DNA of 33,293 nucleotides from assembly GCA_031261295.1 (NCBI GenBank), contig JAISKT010000036.1, positions 1-33,293 of the forward strand, in the 5' to 3' direction. Shown here piece after piece: positions 5,926 to 32,208 of this stretch (its first letter is position 1; every line of letters starts with the position of its first letter). Position numbers and translations under genes: made by a program. Source of the stretch: Candidatus Symbiothrix sp. (GTDB lineage: Bacteria; Bacteroidota; Bacteroidia; Bacteroidales; Azobacteroidaceae). The notes beneath the pieces are model-generated. The model had not been told where the DNA came from, ran no database searches, and was given only the letters and a program-made list of their open reading frames with translations.

Positions 5926-7238
5926 GGTGTTTCTCCTTTATAATAGTTTAATAATCTGTATTTTAATTGATATTTCAAATTTGTATATAACTCTTCGATG
6001 CGTGATTGCAATAAGCGGTTGGCGCTGGTTGACAAGTCGATGGCGTCAATCAAACCTTCCTCGTATTTCCGGAGGTTGGTCTGGTGAGCGCTTTGCATGG
6101 CAACTGTCCGTTTTTGTGCATGAACGGATTCATTTGATAAACCGTTGACATCAGCTACAGCCTGTTCGATTTCGCTATAGATTTGGCGGAGTGTTTCTTC
6201 GTGTTCGCTTCGGGCAATCATTAAACGCTGTTTGCTCCTTTTCATTTCCGAAGAGCGGGAAAACCCGTTGAAAATTGGAATGGCTAATGAAATACCCACA
6301 TAACTTCCTTTCCGAAGTTTCCATTGTTCTTCAAACGACATATACGCACTTCCGTCCAGCAAGCGGGAAAATCCGGTGGAAACGCCTGCATCCAAAGACA
6401 AAGTGGGAAATAAACGGCCTCGCGCTATTTTATATTGTACCTCGGTGGCCGACAAGGATTTATCGGCGACCAAGGCTTTGGGTAAGGTATTCAATGCCTG
6501 TTGATAAACTTCCAAGGCGTTTTCCGGTTCTTTTGTTTCTGTGAGTGTATTTTCATAATTGGCCACGAGCAAATCTTCCTCCACCGGTAAATTCATTATT
6601 CCTTTTAATTTGATGATTTCCAGATTATAACGGTTGATTTGTTTGGTCAATAAAAATTGGTCTTCGGCTTCTTTGGCTTGTATTTCCGTCAAATCAGGAA
6701 TAGATTTAAGGCCCAGTTCTTCCATCCGTTGAAACTTCTTCAAGTTGTTGACACTCTCTTCCAATTGCTGTTGGGCCAATTCTACTGTTCCTTTGTAATA
6801 GAGGACGTTGAAAAAGATTTCCATCACCTCGAAAGCAATTTTGTCTTTGACTTCCTGCAGTTCCTCTTTCCCTTTCAAACGGTTGATTTTCGCTATTTTT
6901 GTCCGGTACACTTGAGAAAGCCCGTCAAACAAAGTCATAGAAGAATAAAGTTCATACCCATTGCTGAAAGAGTTGGTACTGATATAGGTGTTCGTTTCCG
7001 GGTCCACTCCGCGGCCAAAATTCAGATAGGCGCTTGTCCGGGCATTCAGCGAAGGTAAAAAACCGCCGATAGCTTCCAGGCGGTCGAGTTTATAAATTTC
7101 GTTTTGCGCCTCCTGTTTAGTTCGTTGCGGATTGTGTTGGATAGCGTATTGAATACACTCTTCCAATGTCCGGGTTTTTCCCTGGGAAAAAACGGGGAAA
7201 GGGAAAAACAGAACTAACAAAAAAATAATACGTTTCAT
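5916..7238 (-). CDS. TolC-family outer membrane efflux protein
   Basis: Signal peptide, 'TLEECIQYAIQHNPQ' and a duplicated OEP domain. Overlaps the adaptor start by 10 bp. Confidence 0.92.
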   Translation of the reverse strand: MKRIIFLLVLFFPFPVFSQGKTRTLEECIQYAIQHNPQRTKQEAQNEIYKLDRLEAIGGFLPSLNARTSAYLNFGRGVDPETNTYISTNSFSNGYELYSSMTLFDGLSQVYRTKIAKINRLKGKEELQEVKDKIAFEVMEIFFNVLYYKGTVELAQQQLEESVNNLKKFQRMEELGLKSIPDLTEIQAKEAEDQFLLTKQINRYNLEIIKLKGIMNLPVEEDLLVANYENTLTETKEPENALEVYQQALNTLPKALVADKSLSATEVQYKIARGRLFPTLSLDAGVSTGFSRLLDGSAYMSFEEQWKLRKGSYVGISLAIPIFNGFSRSSEMKRSKQRLMIARSEHEETLRQIYSEIEQAVADVNGLSNESVHAQKRTVAMQSAHQTNLRKYEEGLIDAIDLSTSANRLLQSRIEELYTNLKYQLKYRLLNYYKGETPWI

Positions 7239-7285
7239 AACAATAAAAATAGATTTGTTCTTTTACATAATAAGCTATACCAAAG

Positions 7286-7294
7286 TCGTGCCAA
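7286..7294 (-). promoter_or_regulatory. sigma54-like -24 element TTGGCACGA (minus strand) upstream of the tolC-like gene
   Basis: Minus strand TTGGCACGACTTTGGTATA. Confidence 0.45.
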
Positions 7295-7347
7295 AATTAT
7301 ATATGGCTGATTTTTAATTAATTGGTAAAATAATAGAAAGAGTGAAT

Positions 7348-7386
7348 TGTAAAATATTTTTACAGTGGATGATAAATTATTTTACA
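7348..7386. promoter_or_regulatory. Tandem palindromic operators TGTAAA-N5-TTTACA and TGATAA-N5-TTTACA
   Basis: Perfect site 7348-7364 and near-perfect site 7370-7386; same placement as at 3860-3899. Confidence 0.55.
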
Positions 7387-7432
7387 CTGTTTGTCCGACA
7401 CCCTCAACCAAAAGTTAAATTTTAGCAAATCC

Positions 7433-7463
7433 TTTGTTTATATAAAAAAATATATTACCTTCG
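7433..7463 (+). promoter_or_regulatory. Bacteroidetes-type promoter for the leader RNA (TTTG-N19-TACCTTCG)
   Basis: TTTG at 7433-7436 and TACCTTCG at 7456-7463; aligned with the promoter at 18060-18090. Confidence 0.5.
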
Positions 7464-7469
7464 CCAATT

Positions 7470-7940
7470 AAATAAAAAAAGACATTAATTACAAAATAGG
7501 AAACAGTTTATAAAGATATAATTCATTAGAATATAAAGCGTTAATTTTATTCTTGTATTACGAAATCTCGACAATTTCGATACCGGCAAGAATAAATAAG
7601 TAAGCGTTCACGTGGATTCGTGGGCAAAACTTATTTGTCGGTATAGGTAGTCGAGAACCTCGTAATACAAATAAAGTTATAGTCCCACGTTTTTTCTATT
7701 TTAAATAACCGCTTCACAGGGACTTGGAAGCATAAATTTCTACAAACATGCAGAACAAGTCATAGGAAATTGGCGGGCGTTCCGGTTCAATAGTTTTTTC
7801 TCTCATTTTTCAACTGATTGAACGCGCTCGTCCACTACTTAGGGTACAGGCAACCAGATTTTTTTTCATTATTTATAATTTTAATTTTTAATTTTTAATT
7901 TACCGGTTGCCTGTCCTTTTTACCAGATTATAAACTTAAT
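7470..7940 (+). ncRNA. Structured leader RNA, copy 1
   Basis: Homologous to 18097-18600. Helices seen: 7553-7563/7660-7670, 7566-7572/7650-7656, 7580-7589/7635-7644, 7681-7686/7719-7724, 7773-7779/7825-7831, 7785-7791/7817-7823 and 7846-7855/7905-7914. Several show compensatory changes versus copy 2. Confidence 0.75.
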
Positions 7941-7950
7941 AAAAACAATA

Positions 7951-8283
7951 ATGAAGAAAATTGTATTTTTAATGCTGACACTCATCGTTTTGGGTGCAGC
8001 CAGTGTGAATGCGCAAGTACGTATCGGGGGAGCCGATACGGATGTTCCCACCCCAGGGGCTGTCCTGGATTTGAACAATGCGACCGGTGGTTATGTAGGT
8101 GGGCTATTATTGCCCAAAGTAAGCAGTTTGACGTTAACCAGTGTAGAAGCATTTTCTACGGAACCCGATGCCGCCGATAAGCTTGTCGGGCTGATTGTGT
8201 ATAATGCCGATCCCGACGCCGAAGGTATTTATATCTGGACGGGTGCAACAGACGGATGGAAACCGATTTGGAAGAAAAACTAA
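7951..8283 (+). CDS. Small secreted protein, 110 aa
   Basis: Signal peptide MKKIVFLMLTLIVLGAASVNAQ, then VRIGGADTDVPTPGAVLDLNN. The N-terminus resembles that of the 18612 protein. Confidence 0.8.
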   Translation: MKKIVFLMLTLIVLGAASVNAQVRIGGADTDVPTPGAVLDLNNATGGYVGGLLLPKVSSLTLTSVEAFSTEPDAADKLVGLIVYNADPDAEGIYIWTGATDGWKPIWKKN

Positions 8284-11200
8284 TGAAGAGAAAGAACATG
8301 AAACAGAGAACAAAAAGAACTTGGGCGGCATGCCTTGCCGCCTTATGGCTGGTTTTGCCTGCCGTCTTGCAAGCGCAGGTACATATCGGCGGAACGGAGA
8401 GCGCCGTGAAGGGAGCTTTGCTGGATTTGACGACTCCAGCGGGGTCGAATCTCGGCTTACTCCCTTTGAATGTAAGTCTTGAGGATATCAATGAAATTCC
8501 GGATGTGTTTACCAACAAGGCTTCTATCACAGCCGGTGATTTGCAAGGTTTGATCGTGTACAACATCAATCCGGATCTGCCGGACGGCGCAGGCCTTTAT
8601 GTCTGGAACGGGGCGAAATGGAGCAAAATTGTTAGTTGTACCGGCGCTCCTACCTTGGGAGCCTTAACCGCCGCTACCATCTGTAACGGGAGCGATTTGA
8701 TCCGGACGGCCGATGTGGTTTCCGATAACGGTTCGCCGGTCACCAAGTATGAATGGAAATTGGGAGGTGTGACGATAGATACCTCTGAAAATTTAAGTTA
8801 TGAAGTAACGGCTGACGATAACGGCAAAGTGTTGACCTTGTCGGTCATCAATGCGTGCGGTACCACTACTACCGCGGGTGTAACGCTAACCGTTCCGGCC
8901 GCTCTTACACAACCCGATCCGGCGGCCGCCACTATTTGTAACGGCGCAATGTATGCCTTTACATTGGCTGCCGCAACCGGCGGTTCGGGAGCGATCTCTT
9001 ACAACTGGCAGGAAAGTACCAATGGCGTGGCCTGGGAGGATGCCGAAGGTACACGGGACGAAGCCGACTATACGGTGGAAGAGTTAACCGAAACGATGTA
9101 TTACCGCCGGCAAGCTACCGCTGCCGACTGCGGGGGAACCATCGAATCGGCAAGCGCCAAAGTAACCGTGAACCCGGCTTTTACACAGCCTGATCCGTCT
9201 GTCGTTACGATCTGTAACGGCGCAACAACTACCCTTACCCTGGCTGCCGCCACGGGAGGTTCGGGCGCTATCACTTACAACTGGCAACAGAGCGCCGATG
9301 ACGAAACCTGGGCGGATGCCGAAGGTACACGGGACGGGGCTAACTATACGACTCCGGCGTTGACAACGACCATGTATTACCGTCGCCAGGCGATAGCTGC
9401 TACCTGTGGTGGAACCATCAATTCGGCCAGCGCTGAGGTAACCGTGAACGCCGCCTTTACGCAACCTGCTCCGGCGGCCGTCTCTATTTGTATCGGATCC
9501 GAGTACACCTTTACATTGGATGAAGCTACCGGCGGTTCGGGAGCGATCACTTACCAGTGGGAACAGAGTGTGGACAACAGCGCCTGGGCCAATGCTGATG
9601 GAACAAGCACGGATGCGAATTATACAACACCGGCGTTGACAAGTAACATGTATTACCGCCGCATAGCAACTGCCGCCACTTGTGGAGGAACCATCACTTC
9701 CGCTTCGGCTCTGGTAACAGCTGCTACGACCGCCACCCTGACGCAACCCGCTCCGGCGGCCGTTACTATTTGTAGCGGTACGACGACTACCTTTACATTG
9801 GCTGCCGCCACCGGCGGTTCGGGAGCGATCACTTACCAATGGCAACAGAGCGCCAACAACAGCGCCTGGGTCAATGCCACAGGCACGAGCAACACGGCGA
9901 ACTATACGACTCCGGCGTTGACAGGCAACATGTATTACCGCCGTATAGCGACTGCCGCCACTTGTGGTGGAAGCAATACTTCCGCCGCCGCTTTGGTAAC
10001 CATAGCCGCCGCTTTAACGCAAGCCAATCCGGCGGCCGCCACCATCTGTTACAACACGACACGGGCGATTACGTTGGCTGTCGCTACGGGAGGCGCCGGA
10101 ACGATTACGTACAACTGGCAACAGAGCGCCGATAACAGCACTTGGGCCAATGCGGCAGGTACGCGCAATGCGGCTAACTATACAACTCCGGCATTGACAA
10201 GCAACATGTATTACCGCCGGCAAGCTACGGTCTGCAGTACAACCATTACTTCGGCTTCGGCTTTGATAACGGTGACTGCCAACTTTACGCAGGCCAATCC
10301 GGCTGCCGCGACTATCTGTTACAACACGACACGGGCGATTACCCTGGCTGTTCCAACCGGTGGTTCGGGAACGATTACCTACAACTGGCAACAGAGTACC
10401 GATAACGCGACTTGGGCCAATGCGGCCGGTACGCGCAACGCTGCGAATTATACAACCCCAACGTTGACAACGGCCATGTATTACCGTCGCCAGGCGATAG
10501 CTGCCACCTGTGGCGGAACCATCACTTCGGCAAGCGCCAAGATAACAGTGAATGCAAACTTTACACAGGCCAATCCGGCTGCTGCTACTATCTGTTACAA
10601 CACGCAAAGGGCGATTACGTTAGCTGCTGCCACCGGAGGTTCGGGAACGATCACGTACAATTGGCAACAGAGTACGGATAACAGCACCTGGGCCAATGCG
10701 GCAGGTACGCGCAATGCGGCTAACTATACGACGCCTGCGTTGACAACGACCATGTATTACCGGCGCCAGGCGATAGCTGCCACTTGTGGTGGAACCATTA
10801 CTTCGGCCAGCGCTAAAATAACAGTGACAGCTAACTTTACGCAAGCCAATCCGGCGGCCGCGACGATACAACTTGGTTCTACGCGAACCTTTACGGTGGC
10901 TGTTCCAACCGGCGGTTCGGGAACGATTACCTACAATTGGCAACAGAGCGCCGATAACAGCACCTGGGCCAATGCGGCAGGTACGCGCAACGCTGCGAAT
11001 TATACAACACCGGCGTTGACAACAACCATGTATTACCGCCGCCAAGCTATGGCTGCTACTTGTGGAGGTACCATTACTTCGGCTTCGGCTAAGGTGACGG
11101 TGACTAAAACCGGTTCCGCTACAATCGGATCCAATAGTTATTCAACTTACTGCTATGGAGGAACGATCGGTTGTTGGATGGTGCAAAACTCGAAGGAAGG

Positions 11201-11549
11201 TACGGCCTCCTATTCCGATGCGACCTACGGCAAATACTACCTTTGGGCGGATAGAAACGGTGCTTGTGTTTCGCCTTGGACTGTCCCGACAGAAACCCAG
11301 TGGAATGCTTTAAAAACTTACATTAATGGCTCATCGGCTACGGCTGCGGAAAAGGCCATGTGGTTCTCCGGCACTGCGCTTGCCGGATACTACAATGGAG
11401 GTACTTGGGCGCAAAAAGCTACATACGGTTACTGGTGGAGTAGTAGTGTAACGTACCAGTACTACAATCGCGGTCAATATGAGCAGTTGAGTGGCCCGGC
11501 TGTTGGGTATGTGAGCTCCAGTTTGCCCGTTCGGTGCATAAAGAATTAA
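8283..11549 (+). CDS. Large secreted repeat protein: ~8 Ig-like repeats and a C-terminal FISUMP/C-type-lectin-like domain
   Basis: TAATG overlap with the upstream gene. Signal peptide, repeats 'FTQANPAAATICYNTTRAITLA..GGSGTITYNWQQS..NSTWANAAGTRNAANYTTPALTTTMYYRRQA..CGGTITSASAKVTV', and C-terminus GCWMVQNSK...YYLWADRNGACVSPWTVPTETQWNAL...RCIKN. Confidence 0.88.
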   Translation: MKRKNMKQRTKRTWAACLAALWLVLPAVLQAQVHIGGTESAVKGALLDLTTPAGSNLGLLPLNVSLEDINEIPDVFTNKASITAGDLQGLIVYNINPDLPDGAGLYVWNGAKWSKIVSCTGAPTLGALTAATICNGSDLIRTADVVSDNGSPVTKYEWKLGGVTIDTSENLSYEVTADDNGKVLTLSVINACGTTTTAGVTLTVPAALTQPDPAAATICNGAMYAFTLAAATGGSGAISYNWQESTNGVAWEDAEGTRDEADYTVEELTETMYYRRQATAADCGGTIESASAKVTVNPAFTQPDPSVVTICNGATTTLTLAAATGGSGAITYNWQQSADDETWADAEGTRDGANYTTPALTTTMYYRRQAIAATCGGTINSASAEVTVNAAFTQPAPAAVSICIGSEYTFTLDEATGGSGAITYQWEQSVDNSAWANADGTSTDANYTTPALTSNMYYRRIATAATCGGTITSASALVTAATTATLTQPAPAAVTICSGTTTTFTLAAATGGSGAITYQWQQSANNSAWVNATGTSNTANYTTPALTGNMYYRRIATAATCGGSNTSAAALVTIAAALTQANPAAATICYNTTRAITLAVATGGAGTITYNWQQSADNSTWANAAGTRNAANYTTPALTSNMYYRRQATVCSTTITSASALITVTANFTQANPAAATICYNTTRAITLAVPTGGSGTITYNWQQSTDNATWANAAGTRNAANYTTPTLTTAMYYRRQAIAATCGGTITSASAKITVNANFTQANPAAATICYNTQRAITLAAATGGSGTITYNWQQSTDNSTWANAAGTRNAANYTTPALTTTMYYRRQAIAATCGGTITSASAKITVTANFTQANPAAATIQLGSTRTFTVAVPTGGSGTITYNWQQSADNSTWANAAGTRNAANYTTPALTTTMYYRRQAMAATCGGTITSASAKVTVTKTGSATIGSNSYSTYCYGGTIGCWMVQNSKEGTASYSDATYGKYYLWADRNGACVSPWTVPTETQWNALKTYINGSSATAAEKAMWFSGTALAGYYNGGTWAQKATYGYWWSSSVTYQYYNRGQYEQLSGPAVGYVSSSLPVRCIKN
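8901..11106 (+). repeat. Tandem in-frame repeats, ~276 bp each (8 units)
   Basis: Eight starts of the type [LF]TQ[PA][DAN]P; later units (5-8) are the most alike at the DNA level. Confidence 0.85.
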
Positions 11550-18059: not shown

Positions 18060-18090
18060 TTGGTTTATCCGAAAAAAGATATTAATTTTG
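18060..18090 (+). promoter_or_regulatory. Bacteroidetes-type promoter for leader RNA copy 2 (TTG-N20-TAATTTTG)
   Basis: TTG 18060-18062 and TAATTTTG 18083-18090 (TAnnTTTG match). Confidence 0.6.
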
Positions 18091-18096
18091 CCAATT

Positions 18097-18600
18097 AAAT
18101 AAACGATAAAAAGCTTTTATTACAAAATAGAAAACAGTTTATAAAGATATAATTCATTAATATAAAAAAGCGTTACAGCTTTTATTCTTGTCTCAGAAAC
18201 TTCAACAATTTCAATACCGACAAGGATAAGTTAGTAAACGCTCACGTGAATTCGTGGGCTAAACTTATTTGTCGGTATGGGTAGTTGAAGACCTCTGAGA
18301 CGAATAAAGTTATGAGTCCCACGTTTTTTATTTTAAATAACCGCTTCTCAGGGACTTGGAAGCAATAAACACTTTTATTGTATGATAAATCCCCCATAGA
18401 TAACGATATTAGCGGGCAGTTCTATTCAATGGTTTTTTCCCTCTCATTTTTTAGTTATTGAATGCAATGTGTTGCCCGCTATTTCTATAGGGTAAAGGCA
18501 GTTATAAGTATCTTAAGCTTCTTAAGCTACTTAAGCTACTTAAGAAGCTTAAGATACTTATTGTCTTTACTCTTACTTAAAAAATCAACTATTAATAAAT
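18097..18600 (+). ncRNA. Structured leader RNA, copy 2
   Basis: Homologous to 7470-7940. Helices 18188-18197/18294-18303, 18200-18206/18284-18290, 18214-18223/18269-18278, 18411-18418/18473-18480 and 18492-18500/18562-18570. Confidence 0.75.
18505..18562. repeat. CTTAAG array 4, perfect 23-bp inverted repeat with 12-nt loop
   Basis: ataagtatcttaagcttcttaag-ctacttaagcta-cttaagaagcttaagatacttat. Confidence 0.8.
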
Positions 18601-18611
18601 TTATAAATTCA

Positions 18612-19964
18612 ATGAAGATGAAAAAAAATCTTTTTTTAGTGCTGACATTCATCGTTTTGAGTGCAGCAAGTGTGAATGCACAAGTGACTATCGGGAGTGA
18701 ATATGATCCTACGCCTGGGTCTATCCTGGATTTGCAATCCAATGGTAGTTTGGGTCTTCTCTTACCCCGTGTGACATTAACAGATGCTACCGTATGGGCG
18801 CCGGTGGAAGGAGATGCGGTAGATGGAATGACCGTATTTCATAATACCGATGCCATGACCAATGGCTTGACCGGTAAAGGTATTTATGTATGGGCGAACG
18901 GAAGTTGGAGCAGAATGGGAACTCCGGCAACGCCTTGTGTGGATATGGTCGTTTCGACTCCGAAAGCCACTTTCACAGGGGAGATTGGCAACGGTCAACT
19001 ATTGGAATCGGTAGTAAATACAGGTAGCGCTCCGTTTAATTACAACTGGTATAAGGATGGAGTACTCTTACAAACGAATTCCAACAAATCGGAACGCAGA
19101 GACAGCTACAAAGCAACGGATTATGGTACTTATACTTGTGATATTACCAATGCGTGTGCTACAGAATTAAAAACCATCACTTATACAGTCGCTAAAGTGA
19201 ATCCCGGAGAGTATATTGATAATCCAACCGGTATTACTTGGAGTTTGAATGGTATAACTTGTTTTGATGTAAGTGAAGGTAAAGATTTTCCGGCTTCTTC
19301 TGTTTATACACTTGCAATTACGGGTGCCACAGCTACCAATGTATATTGGGTAATAGATGATGCTGATGAAGTTTTAAGTGCTGCGGAAGTGGGAAGTACT
19401 TCTCAGGTGACCTTACCGTTTAAGTCCCGGAGTGAAGTCTCAACGCTTGCAACAGATCCTGTTAGTGTCTCCGTAACTGCTCTTATTACGCTTTCTACGG
19501 GTGCCAAGGTATTTGTCACAAAAACCATAAAGTTACAAAATACAGTTTGCTGTTCAGGTTATGTAGTTCATGCTGGAGTATGGAATGGTCCGTCATCCAC
19601 CAGTATGGATGGCTATAAAACTCATCAAATGGGTGCCATTGGGAAGTACTTTACTCAATCCTCAACTGATTTATGCGTTGCTTTGGCAGATGAAGGAACG
19701 AATGAATATGCTTACCAAGCGGCCATTAATGTATGTGCATCCAAAAGCACTGATGGTACTAACTGGCGACTGCCTAATGTAGCCGAGTTAACACAGTTGG
19801 AAACTCCAAGCTACACTAACTATGATATGCGCAAGTGGGTGTACTACTCTATTACGAAATACGATGCAACTCACGTCTGGTACATTGATAATCGAAATAC
19901 GTCAGGGGCCTATCCATGGTTAGATAATGGCACTCGTTACGTCCGCTGTGTACACGATATGTAA
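18612..19964 (+). CDS. Secreted protein with Ig-like region and C-terminal DUF1566/FISUMP-like (C-type-lectin-like) domain
   Basis: Signal peptide MKMKKNLFLVLTFIVLSAASVNAQ; C-terminus WRLPNVAELTQLE...YYSITKYDATHVWYIDNRN...RYVRCVHDM. The track start at 18462 includes leader-RNA sequence. Confidence 0.85.
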   Translation: MKMKKNLFLVLTFIVLSAASVNAQVTIGSEYDPTPGSILDLQSNGSLGLLLPRVTLTDATVWAPVEGDAVDGMTVFHNTDAMTNGLTGKGIYVWANGSWSRMGTPATPCVDMVVSTPKATFTGEIGNGQLLESVVNTGSAPFNYNWYKDGVLLQTNSNKSERRDSYKATDYGTYTCDITNACATELKTITYTVAKVNPGEYIDNPTGITWSLNGITCFDVSEGKDFPASSVYTLAITGATATNVYWVIDDADEVLSAAEVGSTSQVTLPFKSRSEVSTLATDPVSVSVTALITLSTGAKVFVTKTIKLQNTVCCSGYVVHAGVWNGPSSTSMDGYKTHQMGAIGKYFTQSSTDLCVALADEGTNEYAYQAAINVCASKSTDGTNWRLPNVAELTQLETPSYTNYDMRKWVYYSITKYDATHVWYIDNRNTSGAYPWLDNGTRYVRCVHDM

Positions 19965-29198: not shown

Positions 29199-30272
29199 TC
29201 AACTTTTTTTGAGATTACTCGAAATCCTAATGCTTGGATTACTTGTAGCCGTTTTTGGCGTTTCTTCGATTGCTGCCTTTTTATCACTTTCCCCTTTCAA
29301 ATTACCTGAAATTCTTATTGTACCCGTTGTTACAGGCTTTGGTTCATCCGGTTTGACAATTGGTTTTTCATCCTCTTTTTTTGTAATATCTAAAATATCA
29401 GGCGATTTTAGCGTTTGAAATACTTGACTGATAGTCGGGCGTTTTTCTCTGTCGTTTTGCATCATTGCATTTAGCAAGTCGCAAATTTTTATTGACAAAC
29501 TTGTAACTTTGACAGTATTTCCATCTGCAACAGATTGTGCTACAGAACTGTATGTTTCATTTACAGAGGGTTTTGCACCGCTGAAATATTCTGTAAAAAT
29601 AACACCGAGTGTAAAAATATCCGATTTTGTTGTTAAGTCCTTTTTATTACTTTTTCCTGTATTTTTAATGTAATCCAATAATTCAGGAGAATAATAATCA
29701 GGAGTTCCGACAATTTCTGTACAATCGGGTGGATTTTCAGAAAAATAACTGTCGTCAAAATCAATCAATTTTGTAGTGTATCCTCCTGTTGCAGTTTTTT
29801 TAATAATGATATTGTCCGGTTTCAAGTCGCCGTGAACAATACCTAAATCGTGCAGGATTTTTAAACTGTGCGTAACTGTTTTAAGCAATATCAAAATTTT
29901 ATCTTTTGAAAATTTTGATACATCTTTGGGCTTCAATGAAGCAATATCAATTTTTTCATTGATTTTATAATAACAAGTGCCACATCGAAAAAAATCTATT
30001 GCATACACCAAATTACCACCGATTGCACATTTGGTTGCAATTTTATCATTCAGTTGCTTTTGGTGTTGCTCAAAACGCTCACATTTTTTTCTTTTTTCGG
30101 CTTTGATTTTTGGGCTACCGGGCGCACCATCAACAGGATATTTATAATCAAGAAAAACCTTGATAAAATATTCTGTTCCACCTTTTTTAGCAAAAGATAT
30201 TTCGCCTTTTCCACCTGCTGGAATTGAATTTTTTAAGATTTCATATCCGTTTATTGTTTCACCTGCTCGCAT
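29199..30272 (-). CDS. Serine/threonine protein kinase
   Basis: YFIKVFLDYK, LGIVHGDLKPDNIIIK, LIDFDDSYF, GTPDYYSPELL; DFD replaces the usual DFG. Confidence 0.92.
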   Translation of the reverse strand: MRAGETINGYEILKNSIPAGGKGEISFAKKGGTEYFIKVFLDYKYPVDGAPGSPKIKAEKRKKCERFEQHQKQLNDKIATKCAIGGNLVYAIDFFRCGTCYYKINEKIDIASLKPKDVSKFSKDKILILLKTVTHSLKILHDLGIVHGDLKPDNIIIKKTATGGYTTKLIDFDDSYFSENPPDCTEIVGTPDYYSPELLDYIKNTGKSNKKDLTTKSDIFTLGVIFTEYFSGAKPSVNETYSSVAQSVADGNTVKVTSLSIKICDLLNAMMQNDREKRPTISQVFQTLKSPDILDITKKEDEKPIVKPDEPKPVTTGTIRISGNLKGESDKKAAIEETPKTATSNPSIRISSNLKKS

Positions 30273-31438
30273 ATTTCATTGGTATTAAAAAGTGAATAAT
30301 TTGTTTTTTTGTATTTTGACCACAAATTCTCATATAGTTCGGTGCGTTCTGTTTCAAGTAGAACAAACTGTTCTGTTTGGTTTTGCTGTTTTTTTAAGTC
30401 AAGAATAGATTTTTCTTTATCATCAATATCTTTCATATAATCAAGATATAATGATTCGTTTCGAGTTCTGAATAATTCTTTGAAATTAACAAAATCAGTA
30501 TTGCTATCAGTCAAACACAGTAACGAGATACTACAATCATCGCCCGAAATATCTTTTAGAATTTCACTGATTTTTTGTTCCCATTCACTCATAGAATTTG
30601 CATTTTGCATCGTTTGCAACAGCATATTTTCAAAGTGCATTGGCGTTGAAAAAAACTGAAAACAACCATCGGTAGCCGCAAAGAAAACAGCGGGTGTTTT
30701 TTCCTCTAATTCTTTGAAATTGATAGAAAAATCACTGTCTAGATTTACCATATTAGAAAGGGGAGAATCATTTTTAATGTTTTGGAAAGGGTCGTTTTCT
30801 ACTTTCAAATCATCTTTTGTAAGTTGAACAAGTCCTTTTTCGGCAGATAAACAATAAACTCTCGAATCGCCGGCCCAAAGTGTTTTTATCTTTACTATTG
30901 CATTAGAAACAGAAATCAGAGCGACAGCCATAGTTGTAGGGAAAGTCCTTACCAAACTGCTTCTAATACTGCTTCTTTCGTATTGCTGTTTGTCTAATTT
31001 TTCTTTTAATTTTTCCACTATTTTTTCTTTCAGCGATTCAATATCACTTTGCACAAAAGAAAAATTATCCGTATCAAAGCGACTATTGAAAAATAGTTCT
31101 ACCGCGTTTTTTACTTCGCGAGAGGCAATGTAAGCACCTGTACGAATTTCTTCGTTTTCTTCGTACCTGCTACTTCCGGAACCTCCCATTCCATCAAACA
31201 CGCCGATAACCCACCTTTGTTTGTCGCTTGAAACGATAAACAAAGGTGGTGCATCTTCGGCTGATTTTTCTTTAGGAATGTCAATTATAAAATTGTTCTT
31301 AAAACTTGCTGCCTCTTTTGTTTTTTTCTTCTTTTCCATTTTTATGATTAGAATGATTTTTGCAATCAAAAGTACGCATACGATAGTTAGAAGAATACAA
31401 ATTCTATTTGCTGCACATTCTTGTAATATCATATTCAT
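30251..31438 (-). CDS. PP2C-family protein phosphatase with N-terminal TM
   Basis: RWVIGVFDGMGGSGSS, TMAVALISV...KTLWAGDSRVYCLS, FFAATDGCFQFF, DDCSISLLCL. Confidence 0.92.
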   Translation of the reverse strand: MNMILQECAANRICILLTIVCVLLIAKIILIIKMEKKKKTKEAASFKNNFIIDIPKEKSAEDAPPLFIVSSDKQRWVIGVFDGMGGSGSSRYEENEEIRTGAYIASREVKNAVELFFNSRFDTDNFSFVQSDIESLKEKIVEKLKEKLDKQQYERSSIRSSLVRTFPTTMAVALISVSNAIVKIKTLWAGDSRVYCLSAEKGLVQLTKDDLKVENDPFQNIKNDSPLSNMVNLDSDFSINFKELEEKTPAVFFAATDGCFQFFSTPMHFENMLLQTMQNANSMSEWEQKISEILKDISGDDCSISLLCLTDSNTDFVNFKELFRTRNESLYLDYMKDIDDKEKSILDLKKQQNQTEQFVLLETERTELYENLWSKYKKTNYSLFNTNEICEQVKQ

Positions 31439-31440
31439 TA

Positions 31441-32109
31441 TTATATGCTATTAACAATAGTGCTTAAAATTGTTTTATAGTCAACATCTGCTAAACCTTC
31501 TCCTGCTTTTGACGGAACGTGAATAACACTTTCCCAATGAGTCGCAATATCTGTCCAAGCAGTTGCATCGGGGGTAAACAAAATCAATCTTTTTGCTGTG
31601 TTTGACACATAAGATTGTCCTTCCCACCAATCTGTCAATTCATTAAAATTGGCAGGCAAGCCATTCGGTTTGTAACTTGACGATTTTTCCAACGGGTGCG
31701 TTGAGGCATCAGACCAAACTACAACAATGTGTCGTTGACGGTCGCCATCCTTATCCCAATCGGATTTAATTGCAAGCGCAATGGCTTCCAATCCGTTTTC
31801 TGGCTCATCGCCGCCACCCGAAGGTCGCAATGCACTGACAAACGAACTAAATTTGCCTTCTTCCTCGGGAATTTTGACAAATTCAAGTTGTTCAAGTGCA
31901 GCACTGCCGTCTGCTTCAAAATCCCTAAATGCAATAACACGAATTCGCAAAGAATCCACATTTTTGTCTTTCTCTGCTAATGCTTTTTGTAAATCAGGAT
32001 AAAATTTCAAAGCATTAGTTTTTACGGTTTCCAAAATACCGCCCATACTTCCTGTTACGTCAATGCAGAAAACTAAATCTACATTGTACTTTAACCCCTG
32101 TGTACTCAT
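31441..32109 (-). CDS. vWA-domain protein, TerY-like
   Basis: VDLVFCIDVTGSMGGILETVK (MIDAS), IRVIAFRDFE, GGGDEPENGLEAIALAI, HIVVVWSDASTHPL. Start placed at MSTQGLK. Confidence 0.9.
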   Translation of the reverse strand: MSTQGLKYNVDLVFCIDVTGSMGGILETVKTNALKFYPDLQKALAEKDKNVDSLRIRVIAFRDFEADGSAALEQLEFVKIPEEEGKFSSFVSALRPSGGGDEPENGLEAIALAIKSDWDKDGDRQRHIVVVWSDASTHPLEKSSSYKPNGLPANFNELTDWWEGQSYVSNTAKRLILFTPDATAWTDIATHWESVIHVPSKAGEGLADVDYKTILSTIVNSI

Positions 32110-32208
32110 AATATAAAATTTATTTTTTGCCCCAATCCTCAAACGAGGCAGTTAATATTTTAAGTTTATCCGAAGCATGAGGATTAAAACTACTTTCGGC
32201 GTTTGCCT

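Follow-up and report, generated by a model that had tools for sequence, protein, structure and literature searches.

Repeated structured leader RNAs before secreted-protein genes of 'Candidatus Symbiothrix': a candidate transcription-attenuator family of the Bacteroidota

Transcription-attenuating riboswitches combine a structured 5′ leader domain with a strand that is common to this domain and to a U-run terminator, and serve many genes. Among riboswitches, c-di-GMP-I (GEMM) occurs in many copies per genome and, in certain bacteria, regulates functions at the cell surface and outside the cell. Leader-peptide attenuators also use competing hairpins ending in a U-run, with a short open reading frame (ORF) lying over the 5′ hairpin strands. 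Within the Bacteroidota, the Flavo-1 RNA is an Rfam motif of unknown function located near 5′ regions, as discussed in a Flavobacterium psychrophilum transcriptome study (PMC9723704). Here, we describe a leader RNA that is present twice in a contig of 'Candidatus Symbiothrix' sp. (JAISKT010000036.1); the whole stretch analysed, 33,293 nt, is referred to as the window, and the positions listed are those of the window. The two leaders, their promoters and the genes behind them are as follows.

7433-7463, plus strand: promoter of copy 1, TTTG ... TACCTTCG (TTTG...TAccTTcG), of the Bacteroidetes sigma-ABfr type, from sequence and aligned copies
7470-7950, plus strand: copy 1 leader RNA, ~480 nt, upstream of the ORF at 7951
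7951-8283, plus strand: small secreted protein of 110 aa with signal peptide ...NAQVRIGG, the operon's first gene after copy 1
8256-11549, plus strand: secreted Ig-like repeat protein of 1097 aa, with an Ig_7 match above cut-off and a weak C-terminal Fib_succ_major match
18060-18090, plus strand: promoter of copy 2, TTGG ... TAATTTTG
18097-18611, plus strand: copy 2 leader RNA, from sequence and home-genome BLAST
18183-18368, plus strand: copy 2 core (arm P1-P4 and pseudoknot), covariance model 219.7 bits, E 1.5e-42
18612-19964, plus strand: secreted protein behind copy 2, with weak Lcl_C and Ig-like matches

A previous sequence-only reading had proposed two homologous leaders of ~480 nt behind aligned promoters, and the positions, length and promoters found here all fit that proposal. 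The promoter block is conserved across 30 aligned copies and the −33/−7 promoter match is present in 56 of the 61 copies examined; from promoter position and leader length, transcription is predicted to start near 7470 in copy 1 and 18097 in copy 2. As to the remainder of the window, the 1097-aa protein is built of many similar Ig-like repeats of ~85 aa each, no tRNA was found in the window, and a row of kinase-like, PP2C-phosphatase-like and von Willebrand-A-like genes on the minus strand (29199-32142) resembles, judged by eye from the translations, a TerY-type phosphorylation triad.

The leaders share with attenuating riboswitches the structured 5′ domain, the strand common to domain and U-run terminator and the multitude of genes, but they have no known ligand, their arm is far stabler than the terminator, and no Rfam class matches them. 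At the curated thresholds of Rfam 15, no match was obtained in the window or at six divergent loci; relaxed searches yielded only sub-threshold chance matches in the leader and, at 12 loci, a tRNA and a DUF805 RNA that lie next to the element or outside it, with no credible candidate for the family to which it belongs. A known Rfam family was therefore rejected, and the sequence-only reading, which had not recognised the family and had named such a search as a way to refute its novelty, is borne out. The resemblance to the c-di-GMP-I riboswitch is one of regulon type only; the element gives no Rfam match, has more copies, and differs in its helices and pseudoknot. The Flavo-1 RNA is likewise a Bacteroidota motif near 5′ regions, but it was matched by no copy searched, relaxed thresholds included. 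Unlike in leader-peptide attenuators, the conserved sequence of the element falls at single-stranded RNA positions, and on reading copy 1 from the expected start through strand S2, described below (7470-7689), no ATG was found; a leader-peptide attenuator was rejected for ATG starts in copy 1. The literature searched by term, of partial coverage, gave no description of the element, although one may exist elsewhere, and passages from transcriptome studies of Bacteroides thetaiotaomicron (PMC7366714) and Flavobacterium psychrophilum (PMC9723704) contained none either; searching for the P0 octamer returned unrelated papers only. Judged against Rfam 15 and this term-searched literature, we rate the leaders as a new RNA family that would work like a known kind of regulator.

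The elements of the predicted structure are listed below.

7535-7549, plus strand: P0 motif AAAGCGTTAatttt (consensus AAAGCGTTAGCTTT), just 5′ of P1, conserved in own-genome and phylum-wide copies
7553-7670, plus strand: arm P1-P2-P3-P4, by covariation
7553-7563/7660-7670, plus strand: P1, TTGTATTACGA/TCGTAATACAA, by sequence and covariation
7566-7572/7650-7656, plus strand: P2, TCTCGAC/GTCGAGA, by sequence and covariation
7580-7589/7635-7644, plus strand: P3, ATACCGGCAA/TTGTCGGTAT, by sequence and covariation
7606-7612/7619-7625, plus strand: P4, by covariation
7681-7731, plus strand: H-type pseudoknot, AGTCCC (7681-7686)/GGGACT (7719-7724), crossed by GCTTC (7711-7715)/GAAGC (7727-7731)
7772-7833, plus strand: P8 stem-loop (GCGGGCG stem), present in the expanded own-genome subfamily
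7842-7921, plus strand: P9, long terminator-like hairpin GGGTACAGGCAACC/GGTTGCCTGTCC, then TTTTT; most copies have a strong hairpin here, with variable loop
18490-18574, plus strand: long hairpin of copy 2 at the P9 position, −46 kcal/mol

Every stem that the sequence-only reading had listed with compensatory changes was found in the sequence of both leaders, and the compensated counterparts in copy 2 lie within 18171-18494. Its "almost invariant segment" is also present, and can now be described more precisely as being mostly an H-type pseudoknot that encloses a U-run. In the 30-copy alignment, the promoter block and 5′ segment are conserved, the stems are variable, one block is near-invariant and the 3′ hairpin is variable. 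Across 28 own-genome copies, 98.1% of the cells of P1-P5 and the pseudoknot helix are paired, with double changes at 21 pairs; double-changed cells numbered 185 vs 48.7 in shuffles, and the covariation score was 0.444 vs 0.161 in shuffles and ~0.06 with partners slid by 1-3 columns. For the arm and P5, 501 vs 134 double-changed cells were counted in 59 matches (loci with public contig names) and 447 vs 115 in a mixed set of 51 divergent copies, both alignments being fitted to the covariance model and so biased in its favour. The shuffle control ignores relatedness and the slid control keeps it, although a structure derived from the same sequences tends to outscore its slid versions anyway; the structure conclusion is nevertheless safe because the differences from the controls are so large. 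The AGTCCC/GGGACT stem has covariation support in the 59-match and 51-copy sets as well, and direct reading of relatives shows the crossing helix GCTTC/GAAGC replaced by compensated pairs, GGTTTT/AAAACC and GTCTTC/GAAGAC among them. These results make it close to certain that the leaders are a conserved structured RNA; the selection on RNA structure claimed from the two copies holds in the home genome and in divergent copies, with covariation far above the shuffled and slid controls. By these controls, the absence of covariation that the sequence-only reading had named as a refutation was not observed.

The stems differ in how freely they vary. P3 is hypervariable, with 51 distinct arms among 61 copies, and G-U pairs make up 0% of P2 and 1.8% of P3 vs 22% of P4 and 12.5% of the pseudoknot. 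The scarcity of G-U pairs in the freely varying P2 and P3 may reflect a demand for stable stems, an avoidance of cross-pairing between copies, or a cause at the DNA level. Three own-genome copies (L044, L047 and L050) contain an extra G-rich insert of ~100 nt, TAGGGGGTTGGGGG..., which separates the pseudoknot from P8 and may be a small nested repeat.

The two copies described from the window are both real, but the true number in the home genome is ~100. BLAST with copy 1 returned 56 matches there, mostly of 75-86% identity, and a covariance model built from 28 own-genome copies returned 101 matches in the 4.15 Mb, of which ~77 are high-scoring and the remainder form a divergent subfamily; the own-genome copies are dispersed, many of them near contig ends. 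With so many matches, the likeness of the two leaders is no coincidence. Of 61 genomes sampled from the home organism, its genus and its order, 34 contain the element, and eight have more than 30 matches, these per-genome numbers being lower bounds as up to 43 candidates were scored in each; zero matches were obtained in two reduced, almost complete genomes from this genus, of 1.0 and 1.2 Mb. A broader model, applied with an E-value limit of 1e-5, matched 114 of 295 genomes from the order and, across the phylum, 15 of 147 others, several finished genomes included; E-values are rough here (short calibration) and counts are lower bounds (9-18 candidates scored per genome). A pattern scan of named genomes located 60 loci, nearly all in Bacteroidales; termite guts and ruminants are the main sources, and the carriers include 'Candidatus Symbiothrix' and 'Candidatus Azobacteroides'. 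This copy number and phylum-wide scale, together with the pseudoknot and the alternative pairing described below, go beyond the sequence-only reading.

Carriage by mobile or viral elements was rejected, as the phage and plasmid records searched contained no match and, in two pattern scans, a single viral contig matched the P0-P1 pattern. A diversity-generating retroelement with reverse transcriptase and Avd-like and MutS-I-like proteins was observed at locus L042 (contig C109, 3942-7649), whose template (6135-6319) and target repeat (7233-7417) differ at template adenines in 18 of 18 cases; a link to the leaders was rejected, the template having one strong target, on the same contig, and no similarity to the window. 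A second reverse transcriptase lies at locus L041 (contig C374, 1213-3445), and its neighbour protein ends like a variable lectin-fold target. At locus L204, the element occurs in tandem (1548-1734 and 2365-2552), each copy being followed by a near-identical small HTH regulator.

The genes behind the leaders mostly encode exported proteins. The own-genome copies examined precede short secreted proteins of the form MKK...NAQVxIGG, and a signal-peptide ORF lies downstream on the same strand in 38 of the 41 testable ones. For 82 copies that do not belong to the main own-genome expansion, a simple heuristic assigned a signal peptide to the first gene in 64 cases (78%), vs 58 of 177 (33%) other ORFs of the named loci; these downstream genes include BspA-type leucine-rich repeat, type IX sorting domain and Fib_succ_major proteins, and also a TonB plug domain, HlyD and small regulators. 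A rare non-envelope neighbour, aminotransferase-like by eye, follows the divergent copy L120 (contig C306, 4350-4538). Guessing a ligand from gene context was rejected, since the genes that follow the leaders are too diverse. In divergent copies, the core mostly ends 10-50 nt before the start codon, at a variable distance, whereas the expanded own-genome subfamily carries ~200 nt more after the core, with P8 and the strong terminator-like hairpin P9; such variable distance is as expected if control sits upstream of translation.

Strand C, made up of the 3′ side of P4 and the stretch that continues it, is complementary both to an upstream strand, S1, and to a downstream strand, S2, that abuts the U-run.

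7590-7612, plus strand: strand S1, which builds P4 and the P3 extension with C (arm state)
7619-7637, plus strand: strand C (CGTGGGC...AACTTATTTG), common to both alternative folds
7667-7689, plus strand: strand S2, ACAAATAAAGTTATAGTCCCACG, the other partner of C, predicted terminator stem
7690-7695, plus strand: U-run directly 3′ of S2
18253-18329, plus strand: alternative terminator of copy 2, with C from 18253, S2 at 18300-18323 and U-run at 18324-18329

The C:S2 pairing is copy-specific. Duplexes of C with its own S2 had a mean energy of −17.3 kcal/mol vs −13.6 kcal/mol with swapped partners (0 of 10,000 permutations; permutation sd 0.25), and −17.2 vs −13.3 kcal/mol (0 of 10,000) when the own-genome set was left out, in a permutation statistic uncorrected for relatedness. 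Phylum-level members of different sequence keep the complementarity, L228 for example at −29.5 kcal/mol, and a run of at least five Ts was found in the S2 region of 106 of 119 copies vs 18% in shuffles. On average S1:C and C:S2 are of equal strength (−18.4 vs −18.2 kcal/mol), and at the site of a conserved U·G wobble in P4, a stronger C-G pair is often available with S2. Counted by column, the covariation of C:S2 is modest (7 double-changed cells vs 2.5 in shuffles), which is attributed to C being constrained by S1 as well; the main evidence for the predicted C:S2 helix is complementarity over the whole strand. As a possible third alternative, GCGTT of P0 (7535-7549) would pair with an AACGC-like sequence in S1 (7590-7612); the AAYGYY-like motif concerned is present in 75 of 142 copies vs 11% in shuffles, but several copies break the pairing, and on account of this inconsistent conservation it was set aside as a lead.

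The geometry argues that arm and terminator exclude each other. By prediction, two exclusive paired states, S1:C and C:S2, share one strand, as in an attenuator, and the hairpin is followed immediately by the U-run in those 106 of 119 copies; a conserved structured domain in the 5′ leader, as in a riboswitch, is also present. We therefore consider it reasonably probable that the leaders represent an undescribed cis-acting Bacteroidota RNA family, namely a riboswitch-like transcription attenuator for envelope genes, which has expanded to ~100 copies in a probable relative of termite-gut 'Candidatus Azobacteroides'. After initiation, the RNA would fold the arm P1-P4. Pairing of C with upstream S1 would complete the arm and let the polymerase pass, whereas pairing with downstream S2 would present a hairpin with an immediate U-run and halt the polymerase; once it has read through, the pseudoknot, which precedes the start codon, would take up the end of S2. 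A shared cellular signal, be it a ligand, a protein or another factor, would block or permit the arm and so lead to joint expression of many secreted and surface proteins. We infer that the U-run hairpin terminates and that a signal controls termination, and the default state likewise. The full arm averages ~−50 kcal/mol vs ~−24 kcal/mol for the terminator hairpin; with an arm ~25 kcal/mol more stable, termination would depend on some factor holding the arm open as the RNA leaves the polymerase, and the thermodynamics suggest that read-through is otherwise the default. Two further points stand against an attenuator at the U-run: the 3′ strands of the pseudoknot lie beyond it and cannot prevent termination in real time, and P9, a further strong hairpin before the gene in the own-genome subfamily, may matter more.

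The conserved and compensated pseudoknot also invites a reading at the level of translation, in which it would control ribosome access next to the start codon and C:S2 would merely release or form it. Its end lies mostly 10-50 nt before the start codon in divergent copies, and its 3′ strand can carry GGAGG, but the start-codon distance is variable and reaches at least 200 nt in most own-genome copies, which makes such a switch less likely; Shine-Dalgarno pairing is, moreover, rare in Bacteroidetes. Its absence in flavobacteria is noted in the Flavobacterium psychrophilum study (PMC9723704). As the conserved U-run abutting S2 would also stay unexplained, we regard a translation-level switch as unlikely. 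Slightly less probable still is that transcription ends at the U-run or P9 to leave a stable 5′ cap or a free RNA, which would protect the mRNA or act in trans. Two terminator-like hairpins before the gene in the expanded subfamily and the very stable arm would suit this, but a secreted-protein ORF follows on the same strand behind 38 of the 41 testable own-genome copies, an ORF lies close behind most divergent ones, and a passive cap has no need of a copy-specific alternative pairing. A DNA-level element, either a recombination or mobility hairpin or repeat or a sequence carried along passively as a gene family duplicates, would agree with ~100 dispersed copies, many near contig ends, and with the near absence of G-U pairs in P2 (0%) and P3 (1.8%) as DNA pairing would require, but is very improbable given the common G-U pairs in P4 (22%) and the pseudoknot (12.5%), a pseudoknot and U-run that point to RNA, the divergent copies before unrelated genes across the phylum, and the lack of matches in the phage and plasmid records searched.

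For the attenuator that we favour, the two-state design provides concrete mutations to test. A conserved RNA that occurs in over a third of the genomes sampled from the order, with members in further orders and in one additional class-level group of the phylum, is so far missing from the reference library. To our knowledge, ~100 copies of one cis-acting leader per genome exceed those of any described riboswitch class. It is conceivable, and we propose it tentatively, that these leaders are an unrecognised phylum-wide riboswitch class by which one global signal coordinates the secreted and surface proteome, and which has expanded to ~100 copies in an organism related to termite-gut protist symbionts. 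Should the leader prove to be a switch, identifying its signal would give access to a layer of regulation over adhesins, secreted repeat proteins and genes for peptide export among the Bacteroidota of gut, rumen and termites.
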